From a virus: a stretch of 44,259 nucleotides of DNA. Under the pieces are notes generated by a model. That model made no database searches. It worked only from the letters and a program-made list of their open reading frames with translations, and was not told the DNA's origin. Positions 17,107 through 30,894 of this stretch are shown here, one piece after another. The position numbers were made by a program, and so were the translations under genes. The DNA lies in IMG/VR virus record IMGVR_UViG_3300044641_003958, positions 1 through 44,259 of that record; one strand, given 5' to 3'. Each line of letters opens with the position of its first letter. The first letter of the stretch is position 1.

Positions 17107-17270
17107 CTGACGACACCCTCATCATCTGCACACCAGATGAGCTAGTAGCCATGCACAGCCGTGGTGAAGTAGGTGAGACCGGTTTCTGCATCACCCTTGA
17201 GGCATTGTTTGAGGTGTTGTGTGAGCACTACGGAGTTAACCCGCATTGGAGTCCCACTGATGTCTACTAA
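17103..17270 (+). CDS. Small acidic protein of unknown function
   Basis: 55 residues (MTDDTLIICTPDELVAMHSR...), ending HYGVNPHWSPTDVY. It is chained by ATGA to the gene before and by TAATG to the DNA polymerase exonuclease gene after. No family recognised. Confidence 0.55.
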   Translation: MTDDTLIICTPDELVAMHSRGEVGETGFCITLEALFEVLCEHYGVNPHWSPTDVY

Positions 17271-17833
17271 TGAACCTTCTCTTTGACATCGAGACAGACG
17301 GCCTCTACAACAACGTAACCCAGATTCATTGTGTTGCTATCAAAGACCTTGGTAACGGTGAAACTTATGTCTTCAATGATGTCGGTACTCAGCCACCCAT
17401 TTCACGTGGTATTGCGATGCTGGAGGAGGCTGACACGATCATTGGTCACAATGTGATCGGGTATGACGTACCAGTAATTCAGAAGTTCTATGCATGGTTT
17501 ACCCCAAAGCGGCCTCTTGACACTCTTATTCTTTCTCGCCTTTATCATCCTGACCTTCTTAAGATCGACCGAAAGGTGAACGACAAGGGAGAGTCAGTGT
17601 GCCGCTGGAAAGACATGCCACTGAAGCTGGTAGGTAGGCATTCACTTGAAGCTTACGGCTATCGACTAAAGGTGTACAAAGGTACATTCGCAAAACACAC
17701 CGACTGGAAGGAATGGTCTCAAGAAATGGAGGATTACTGCAAACAAGACCTAGAGGTCACTCAACAACTATGGAAACATTTCCAGAAATACCTGGATGGG
17801 TCTTACTTGAACACCAAGTTGCAGAAATCCTGA
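17270..17833 (+). CDS. DNA polymerase, 3'-5' exonuclease part (T7 gp5 N-terminal)
   Basis: 187 residues equal to the proofreading domain of family A phage polymerases: Exo I LLFDIETDGLY (Asp6, Glu8), Exo II IIGHNVIGYDVPVI, and Exo III YCKQDLEVTQQLWKHF. T7 gp5 is one chain of 704 residues; here the frame ends after the exonuclease, and the polymerase domain continues in the -1 frame (17770-19041). The last codons (QKYLDGSYLNTKLQKS) lie in the overlap and do not look like family sequence, whereas the other frame does. Either a true split into two subunits, a frameshift, or a one-base sequence error. Confidence 0.88.
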   Translation: MNLLFDIETDGLYNNVTQIHCVAIKDLGNGETYVFNDVGTQPPISRGIAMLEEADTIIGHNVIGYDVPVIQKFYAWFTPKRPLDTLILSRLYHPDLLKIDRKVNDKGESVCRWKDMPLKLVGRHSLEAYGYRLKVYKGTFAKHTDWKEWSQEMEDYCKQDLEVTQQLWKHFQKYLDGSYLNTKLQKS

Positions 17834-19041
17834 CCAGACAAGAACTCCATGGATGGTACTTCGACGAGCGATCCGCTTATGAGTTGGAATCGGAACTACG
17901 ATCTTCACTTGAATCGTTGTCAGCAGCTCTCCGCAGACGGCACCCTTTCGTTGCGGGAAGCGAGTTTACTCCTCGTCGCCCTAACAAGACCACGGGATAT
18001 TTCACTGGATGCACTTTTACGCGCATCAAGGATCTTAACCCCACCAGTCGAGAGCACATCGCCTGGGTGATGAAGGAGTTCTACGGATGGAAACCTACTC
18101 AGTTCACTGACAAAGGGAAAGCAACCGTGGATGAAGTTGTCTTGACGGACATCGGCACTCCAATTGCTCTGGAGTTTCTCCAGTGCTTGGAATTGAAAAA
18201 GCAGCTTGGCATGTTGACGGAAGGCATCAATGCCTGGCTAAAGCTTTGTCGAAATGGTCGAGTCCATCACCACTGTTCAGTTGCAACAAACACGCATCGA
18301 TGTGCTCATCGAAATCCAAACCTAGGACAAGTCCCTTCGGATGCACGATTCAGACGATTATTCCAATCAACTCCAGGACTATGCATGGTTGGCGCCGATC
18401 TTAGCGGCATCGAGTTGCGGATGTTTGCGCATTACCTTAGTCGTTATGACGATGGGCGCTATGGTGAAATCCTGCTTAATGGTGATATCCACCAAGTTAA
18501 TGCCGACAAGATTGGCATTAGTCGTAAGCTCGTCAAGACCGTTACCTATGCTTTTCTTTACGGGGCTGGGAACGAAAAGATCGGACTCTCATATGACCCT
18601 CAACTTCCAACCGTTAAGGCAAGAAAGAAGGGTGCAGAAATACGTCAAGCGTATCTCGATGCAATTGAAGGTCTTGAGAGCCTTGTTAATGCCGTCAAGG
18701 AAAAGGTTCAATCAGCTGGCTATGTCAATTCAATTGACGGACGACGTATCGCTGTTGATGGCCCCCATAAGGCGCTGAACTACCTGCTGCAATCAGGAGC
18801 TGGTGTCATCGCAAAGCGTTGGATGCTAATTGCCAACGATCAACTGAAACAACTGAATATTGATGCACATCAGTTGGGGTTTATACACGACGAAGTGCAG
18901 TTTGAATGTAACCCCGCTCATGCGGACACTCTAATGTTTAATCTTGAACTCGCAGCAGCTCAATCTGGAGAGTACTACAACCTCCGAATTCCAATCGCCG
19001 CTGAAGCTAGTACCGGGAAAACCTGGGCTGAAACCCACTGA
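17770..19041 (+). CDS. DNA polymerase, polymerase part (T7 gp5 C-terminal)
   Basis: 423 residues from ATG 17770 (METFPEIPGWVLLEHQVAEI); the frame is open further upstream to 17713. AGAGG at 17752-17756 is a possible ribosome site. Family A motifs are complete: motif A VGADLSGIELRMFAHYL (Asp210), motif B LVKTVTYAFLYGAGNEKIG, and motif C LGFIHDEVQFEC (His373-Asp374-Glu375). The motif B Tyr (TVTYAF) corresponds to T7 Tyr526. It should work with the exonuclease chain at 17270-17833, which it overlaps by 64 bases. No thioredoxin-binding insertion is obvious. Confidence 0.92.
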   Translation: METFPEIPGWVLLEHQVAEILTRQELHGWYFDERSAYELESELRSSLESLSAALRRRHPFVAGSEFTPRRPNKTTGYFTGCTFTRIKDLNPTSREHIAWVMKEFYGWKPTQFTDKGKATVDEVVLTDIGTPIALEFLQCLELKKQLGMLTEGINAWLKLCRNGRVHHHCSVATNTHRCAHRNPNLGQVPSDARFRRLFQSTPGLCMVGADLSGIELRMFAHYLSRYDDGRYGEILLNGDIHQVNADKIGISRKLVKTVTYAFLYGAGNEKIGLSYDPQLPTVKARKKGAEIRQAYLDAIEGLESLVNAVKEKVQSAGYVNSIDGRRIAVDGPHKALNYLLQSGAGVIAKRWMLIANDQLKQLNIDAHQLGFIHDEVQFECNPAHADTLMFNLELAAAQSGEYYNLRIPIAAEASTGKTWAETH

Positions 19042-19342
19042 CTGCAACAGAAAGGGTGACTACTGGGAGTTGCACACCTCACTAGTTGCTTGGAAAAAGG
19101 GTGCTGAAGTCTTCAAAAACATAGGCTGTAGTGGGGATACAGATCTAGTGATATCGCACAAGGGGCACCTCTTGAAGTGTGATGTGAAGGTAATGACTAA
19201 ACGTGGAAGAAACTACTACGCTCCACAAATTGGAAGAGTCGCGCCTGGTGTGTACATGATCGCAGTACATCCAATCACACATCAGATTAGTTGGCATCCA
19301 AAGACAGTGCCGGCTGGCCTTGAAAACTTCTGGGAAAAATAA
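18944..19342 (+). CDS. PD-(D/E)XK-type nuclease-like protein
   Basis: The frame is open from a TTG at 18944 (132 residues), but the first 30 or so lie inside the polymerase gene; the convincing part starts near 19040 (CNRKGDYWELHTSLVAWKKG). The core AEVFKNIGCSGDTDLVISHK, GHLLKCDVKVMTK fits the restriction-nuclease fold: an early Glu, Asp in TDLVI and DxK in DVKV. A small DNA nuclease or resolvase between the polymerase and the gp6-type exonuclease is plausible. The real start is uncertain, possibly CTG 19031 or TTG 19071. Confidence 0.7.
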   Translation: MNSQQLNLESTTTSEFQSPLKLVPGKPGLKPTDCNRKGDYWELHTSLVAWKKGAEVFKNIGCSGDTDLVISHKGHLLKCDVKVMTKRGRNYYAPQIGRVAPGVYMIAVHPITHQISWHPKTVPAGLENFWEK

Positions 19343-29646: not shown

Positions 29647-30894
29647 ATGGCTAACGCCACTCAATCCGTACTCGGTACTCTTAATAAAGCTGTAGCCGAT
29701 ACCGCTGGTAATCGTGCATACGATACCAAATACGCTACCTACCTCAATAATGGGGCCTCATCCAAGTAATTGGCTGAGTGCATCGGGTGAATTGCTGGAA
29801 CCCTAAGGGTATAATATACCTATGGCAATCAGCAGCCAAGTCTTGCACGTTCTTGCAAGAAAGGTCCAGAGACTACATGGTGTGTCAAGCGTGGCACGTA
29901 ATACATGATTAGCGCCCGACATCCCAAGTGGATGAAGATATAGTCCTCCCCTAATCGAAAGACTAGGATACGGAGCAAATTGTTCAGCGGCGAGCTGTTC
30001 AAAGCTTATGAGTCCGCCACGATTGCACGTGATACCGTGCAGCGTCGTACTCTGAAGAACGGCAAGTCCCTGCAGTTCATCTTTACCGGTCGTATGACCG
30101 CTGGTTACCACACCCCTGGTACTCCTATCCTTGGTAGTGGTGATCCCCCGGTGGCCGAGAAGACCATCGTCTGTGACGACCTGCTCGTCAGCTCTGCCTT
30201 TGTGTATGACCTGGACGAGACTCTCGCTCACTACTCGCTGCGCGGCGAGATCTCCAAAAAGATCGGTCATGCCCTCGCTGAGGCTTATGACAAAAAGATC
30301 TTCCGTATGATCGCCAAGGCCGCACGTGAGGCGCACCCCATCACTGCAGCTCCTGGTCCTGAGCCCGGTGGTTCGATCATCCAACTGGGTGTTCAGAAGG
30401 AGTTTGATGCTCAGTCTCTGGTGGACGCTTTCTTTGAAGCTGCAGCTATTCTCGACGAGAAGAACCTGCCCAAGACTGGCCGTCATGCTGTGCTGTCTCC
30501 CCGTCAGTACTACGCACTGATCAGCCAGGTCGATTCCAACATCCTCAACCGTGACTACGGTGCCTCCCAAGGTAACCTGAACAGCGGTGAAGGCCTGTAT
30601 GAAATCGCTGGTATCACCATCAAGCGCAGCAACAACCTGCCTTTCCTGGCCGGTAACGTGGCTGCTGTGAGTGGTGAGAACAACAACTACTCCGGTGACT
30701 TCAGCACCCACTGCGGCCTCATCTATCAGAAGGATGCTGCTGGTGTGGTGGAGGCCATCGGTCCTCAAGTGCAGACCACCTCTGGTGATGTCTCTGTGCT
30801 GTATCAGGGCGATGTGATCCTGGGCCGTCTGGCCATGGGTTGCGGCACCCTGAACCCCGCTGCTGCTATCGAGCTGCAGTCTGCTCGTTCCTGA
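29647..30894 (+). CDS. Major capsid protein (T7 gp10-like), interrupted by an intron
   Basis: Two exons: 29647-29744 and 29976-30894. Joining them gives 338 residues (T7 gp10A: 345). The junction reads KYATYL from exon 1 and KLFSGELFKAYESATIARDT from the joint, the expected capsid sequence. Unspliced, translation would stop after 40 residues (CTC AAT AAT GGG ... TAA at 29767-29769), and exon 2 has no ordinary start, so splicing is needed for viable phage. Later regions (KNGKSLQFIFTGRMTAGYHT, GSDPPVAEKTIVCDDLL-like GSGDPPVAEKTIVCDDLLVS) are typical HK97-fold podovirus capsid. It is preceded by the likely late promoter region. Confidence 0.93.
29745..29975 (+). other. Group I intron, 231 nt, without an ORF
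   Basis: Exon 1 ends in T (CCT) and the intron ends in G (CGGAG), as group I requires. P1 can form from CCTC with GGGG (29752-29755), placing a U-G pair at the splice site. Core elements: P, ATTGCTGGAA (29791-29800); Q, AATCAGCAGCCAAG (29827-29840); P6 CTTGCA/TGCAAG (29842-29859); R, GTCCAGAGACTA (29864-29875); S, AAGATATAGTCC (29935-29946). P7 is GACTA with TAGTC, and P9 CCTA/TAGG follows. Splicing restores the capsid frame exactly. There is no endonuclease inside; several free-standing nucleases lie at 1710-4199. Confidence 0.93.

Follow-up and report, generated by a model that had tools for sequence, protein, structure and literature searches.

The closest described counterparts of the locus analyzed here come from the Autographiviridae cyanophages P-SSP7 (genes 017A/017B) and S-TIP37 (genes 17A/17B), in which the DNA polymerase is spread over an exonuclease gene and a polymerase gene that overlap in a −1 relation. 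The record notes of both phages give 'split' or 'frameshift' as alternatives, and S-SRP01 is annotated with the same arrangement. According to the passage on this gene in the 2012 P-SSP7 paper, the proteome confirms 'a putative frameshift or is a split variant', a wording that does not separate the two. In the open-licence literature, we found no paper that settles split versus frameshift for these phages. In the relevant part of a 2019 paper, such genes are regarded as frameshift mutants in which fidelity residue 762 is concealed (PMC6370689), and DNA polymerase is described, in the section concerned, as a marker gene for these phages (PMC4646655).

The window, i.e., the whole 44,259-base virus record, reads as a T7-like cyanophage genome and is a further case of this known arrangement: the two genes, their order, the −1 overlap and the polymerase start site are the same as in P-SSP7 and S-TIP37, and the polymerase belongs to the split clade delineated below, in line with the P-SSP7-type split of MPP-B-like cyanopodoviruses. 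The polymerases of these two phages are about 60-65% identical to that of the window, and their overlap is 40 nt, compared with 64 nt in the window, where the usual TAG stop of the exonuclease gene is lost. What is new in the present analysis is evidence that largely decides between split and frameshift, along with how widely the split extends within the lineage. Very likely, these are two overlapping genes that are started separately and the products of which would pair as a T7-like polymerase.

The two genes in the window

The split polymerase lies in a gene order typed as T7-type RNA polymerase, endonuclease I, primase-helicase, split polymerase and 5'-3' exonuclease; the features of the locus are collected in Table 1. 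As recorded in the first-pass annotation, the exonuclease and the polymerase occupy separate frames, with the open reading frame at 17270-17833 and the −1 frame ending at 19041 both present.

Table 1. Features of the split polymerase locus in the window
Feature	Position	Strand	Basis or occurrence
TGA stop that closes the polymerase frame upstream	17647..17649	+	Window sequence
3'-5' exonuclease (proofreading) gene, 187 aa	17270..17833	+	ORF, Pfam, PHROGs, AF2 model, PDB match, invariant residues
Start codon of the polymerase, conserved (ATG here, TTG in part of the relatives), within exonuclease-frame Leu-Trp codons	17770..17772	+	
Gene for a family A DNA polymerase (423 aa when counted from the conserved ATG)	17770..19041	+	Pfam, PHROGs, T7 alignment, invariant residues
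TTT-C slip candidate, not conserved	17779..17782	+	In 64/115 junctions
Overlap read in two frames, 64 nt	17770..17833	+	Window and relatives
Exonuclease stop (TGA)	17831..17833	+	ORF

The upstream gene product matches Pfam family RNase_H_2 (E 2e-7) and the downstream one, read in the −1 frame, matches DNA_pol_A (E 7e-37); among the PHROGs matches for the two halves are 'DNA polymerase exonuclease subunit' and 'DNA polymerase I'. The AF2 model of the exonuclease alone is a complete fold (mean pLDDT 90.9), with T7 DNA polymerase (gp5) as its best PDB matches, and the last long helix of this model (residues 151-175) stops at the junction, where the frames change. The polymerase, modelled from a single sequence, reached a pLDDT of only 35. 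T7 DNA polymerase is the top-scoring solved structure for both halves, and the hallmarks of T7 gp5, namely the acidic residues of the exonuclease and motifs A, B and C of the polymerase, are present. In structure-based alignments of hand-picked rows, the acidic residues D6, E8, D66 and D160 of the exonuclease (37 rows) and D210, K256, Y260 and D374 of the polymerase (39 rows), to all of which we assign the familiar roles, are invariant. By homology, the two genes appear to encode a phage replicative polymerase and its proofreading exonuclease as two proteins. Tyr260, which is invariant in the 39 rows, is presumably equivalent to fidelity position 762, so that reading the locus as two genes makes this residue readable.

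Immediately 3' of the polymerase gene, there is a small open reading frame (19049-19342) for which only PHROGs of unknown function (phrog_23404, phrog_5018) and no Pfam family were matched; by eye, we take it to resemble a nuclease of the PD-(D/E)XK kind. Elsewhere in the window, a group I intron (29735-29967; Rfam RF00028, 100 bits) appears to break the major capsid protein gene close to its 5' end, leaving a short upstream exon from the ATG at 29648 and a remainder of 304 aa from about 29980 that shares 90.5% identity with the capsid protein of S-CBP1; no open reading frame of at least 60 aa was found on the + strand within this intron. At the polymerase junction, there is neither an intron nor an intervening open reading frame. 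Given that the halves overlap and that there is no Rfam match in 17500-18200, an intron or inserted gene was rejected as the cause of the split.

The junction and the polymerase start across the lineage

The set of relatives was assembled from IMG/VR with three polymerase-similarity queries, the third being the whole fused Syn5 chain, and the best 80 matches to each were taken; further loci came from annotated isolates, and the window itself was included as locus L001. After the exclusion of six loci with one half missing (L009, L037, L101, L117, L179 and L258), 254 loci with both halves were available, 167 of them split (the window, 155 IMG/VR records and 11 isolate records) and 87 fused, 85 of the latter being of the Syn5/P60 type with a single frame. 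Isolates in the set are probably duplicated by some of the IMG/VR records, so the number of distinct junctions, 115, is a better count than 167. The same split, for which the first-pass annotation had pointed to relatives, recurs throughout: the polymerase is in the −1 frame in 167/167 split loci, that is, in all 115 distinct junctions, and no genome record departs from this relation. Given that the loci were picked by polymerase similarity or as known isolates, the frame relation was not selected for, and on the sequence comparison its constancy appears to be far beyond chance.

A tree was built from 106 polymerase rows, one of them T7. In it, a branch with support 100 separates the 68 split rows from the other 38, which are fused; the window polymerase groups with the split clade. 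In the fused relatives, a single unbroken stretch is homologous to both the exonuclease tail and the polymerase start. The first-pass annotation had thus placed the junction correctly when it joined QQLWKHF to PEIPGWVLLEH. Given this continuity, a single frame-changing event in a fused ancestor, retained ever since, would be the simplest history. Among the split-clade GenBank rows listed, 23 of the 49 have no feature annotated under the polymerase match. The frame-broken gene was probably dropped by gene callers or submitters, and the division into two genes may explain this lack of annotation.

The overlap is 40 nt in 88 of the 115 distinct junctions. In most relatives, the exonuclease ends at a TAG inside the codons for Leu13 and Glu14 of the polymerase, 24 nt before the stop in the window, where Leu13 is encoded by CTT, so that no TAG is formed and the exonuclease is longer by this length. 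In three loci (L019-L021), the overlap is 91 nt, with a junction insertion that lengthens both frames together.

At the aligned start site, ATG is found in 149, TTG in 16 and ATT in 2 of all 167 loci; among the distinct junctions, the respective numbers are 99, 15 and 1, and in the ATT case shown (L074) the next codon is TTG. The polymerase frame is closed by a stop within the two codons before the start in 43/115 distinct junctions, 39 of which have it one codon upstream, so this frame is not enterable farther upstream in these 43. The first-pass annotation had the polymerase frame open from 17713. The frame is in fact open from 17650, i.e., 40 codons upstream of the start at 17770, and 17713 simply marks the first ATG in it; the relatives keep the ATG at 17770 as the start, and initiation at 17713 was rejected because 43/115 relatives have a stop no more than two codons upstream of the site corresponding to 17770. 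No Shine-Dalgarno-like 4-mer was found upstream of the start in 114/115 distinct junctions.

The start site overlies Leu-Trp or Leu-Cys codons of the exonuclease, so that a start codon is possible only with a suitable ending of the Leu codon. This start-bearing codon ends in A or T in all 114 junctions that have Leu there. The background figure, taken from 36 columns of conserved Leu in the two genes, is 2338/3965 (59%); among these columns, the start-bearing one ranks first and is the only one at 100%. The same bias is seen in a smaller set (70/70, first of 39 columns) and in the 68 non-redundant rows (67/67, first of 35 columns). Elsewhere in both genes, Leu codons before Trp or Cys end in G or C in 37/119 cases. 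The second most biased Leu column is polymerase Leu13 (105/110), the TTA or CTA codon of which creates the TAG stop of the exonuclease. Given these biases, the polymerase start and the exonuclease stop each appear to be held by selection acting through the other frame. In the fused relatives, a −1 frame ATG at the start site was found in 0 of the 61 scorable loci (of 85).

Sequencing error and ribosomal slippage as alternatives

That the split is a one-base sequencing or assembly error, an option listed in the first-pass annotation, has a negligible probability given the unanimity of the 167 split loci from the window, IMG/VR and isolates, and we consider it ruled out. The only records that could speak for such an error are the two remaining fused loci, the single-gene GenBank entries of S-CBP3 and S-CBP1, but it is these that are the odd ones: when aligned with the genome of its own phage, each shows a single additional base, located right at the junction, and by the alignment counts no other difference. 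We presume that these fused records are edited or misread; labeled 'DNA polymerase, complete cds' (EF535232, L091, and EF535233, L005), they may mislead marker-gene work. The division of the polymerase into two parts thus looks real and old, and not like a mistake in sequencing. A second frame break, at about polymerase residue 270, occurs in 3 of the 11 split-clade isolate loci (NATL2A-133, S-RIP1 and P-GSP1; L093, L094 and L095). It falls at a run of A and, unlike the junction, looks like a homopolymer miscall in those records.

Under programmed −1 ribosomal frameshifting, the polymerase would be made as a fused chain, and the short exonuclease would result when no shift occurs. The invariance of the −1 relation among split loci is compatible with this scenario, which the record notes of P-SSP7 and S-TIP37 leave open, and in the window the polymerase frame is open for a long way upstream of the start and TTT-C is present within the CAT TTC codon pair (17777-17782), on which the first-pass annotation had proposed slippage. 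However, TTT-C is missing in 51/115 distinct junctions, so that slippage at this site was rejected as not conserved, and 5 of the 43 junctions with a closed frame lack a single-codon slip site of any sort. A search for a conserved slippery heptamer within the permitted range found the classical X_XXY_YYZ pattern in only 3/115 junctions, in all three at position −9 relative to the start.

The RNA around the junction provides a further argument on both sides. Compared with simple base shuffles, 60-base segments that begin 0, 15 and 20 nt past the start show stronger folding (z −9.2, −8.6 and −7.1, scores of a kind that is inflated by the relatedness of the sequences), as a slippage stimulator might, but the segment at +200 behaves alike (z −7.7). 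RNAalifold returned an empty consensus structure for an alignment of 61 sequences drawn from the 68 non-redundant split rows, from which most rows with junction insertions were excluded, and a small hairpin over the start codon, although 90.5% paired, shows no covariation, with no pair changed on both sides; a downstream RNA stimulator was therefore rejected. Frameshifting also leaves unexplained why a start codon is kept in 115/115 junctions (with ATT-TTG counted) and why the Leu codons are held to A or T. Taken together, these observations make frameshifting improbable. Even less probable, in our estimate, is a combination in which the polymerase starts independently and low-level slippage adds a minor fused form: a weak slip site does exist in some of the phages, e.g., in the window, but slippage has no conserved signal. 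Among the options raised in the first-pass annotation, the true two-subunit polymerase is the one favored by the comparisons with relatives.

A probable two-gene polymerase and its known counterparts

Under the favored reading of two separately started genes, the exonuclease gene would be translated through to its own stop, and the polymerase would begin independently at the ATG at 17770, inside the exonuclease gene and one frame back. Given that there is no Shine-Dalgarno sequence at this start, initiation would probably be helped by ribosomes already translating the exonuclease. The split falls in the linker between the exonuclease and the polymerase, right after the last long exonuclease helix, and the two proteins are expected to pair non-covalently to yield a proofreading replicative polymerase. 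We further propose, tentatively and as a possibility that falls somewhat short of an even chance, that the entire lineage, which is widely found, possesses an obligate two-subunit family A polymerase with a separately translated proofreading subunit, in which case the stoichiometry of exonuclease to polymerase, and hence fidelity, could be set by translation instead of being fixed at 1:1. A T7-type polymerase in which proofreading naturally resides on its own subunit would, if real, serve as a direct test bed for the exchange of DNA between the exonuclease and polymerase sites.

The gene 5 DNA polymerase of T7 aligns with both halves and is made as one chain, whereas in the window the exonuclease and the polymerase are in two frames, with the split falling between about residues 180 and 207 of the T7 protein. 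Approximately 40 residues of T7 gp5 (between 247 and 311) have no counterpart in the window polymerase (at 17917-17990); we assume that these lie in the thioredoxin-binding region. The polymerases of Syn5, P60, S-CBP2, SS120-1 and S-TIP28 are homologous to the window proteins along both halves, with about 41-46% identity in the polymerase, but unlike in the window they are encoded in one open frame. In S-TIP28, a gene annotated as thioredoxin is located two genes upstream of the polymerase.

Division of a replicative polymerase into two polypeptides is shared with the Aeromonas phages 25 and 44RR, in which, according to the relevant section of the report on these phages, the family B polymerase is split into gp43A and gp43B and the phage 25 halves co-purify and are active (PMC2988022). 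It is this precedent, together with the close fit to T7 gp5, that leads us to infer pairing of the two products in the window. The arrangement differs, given that what lies between the Aeromonas halves is described there as an untranslated spacer or a gene for a homing endonuclease (PMC2988022), whereas the window halves overlap and belong to family A. In the OM43 phages MEP401 and MEP402, a family A polymerase is likewise reported, in the part of the paper devoted to it, in two open reading frames; unlike in the window, that split is inside the polymerase domain, with a small open reading frame in between (PMC10580990).
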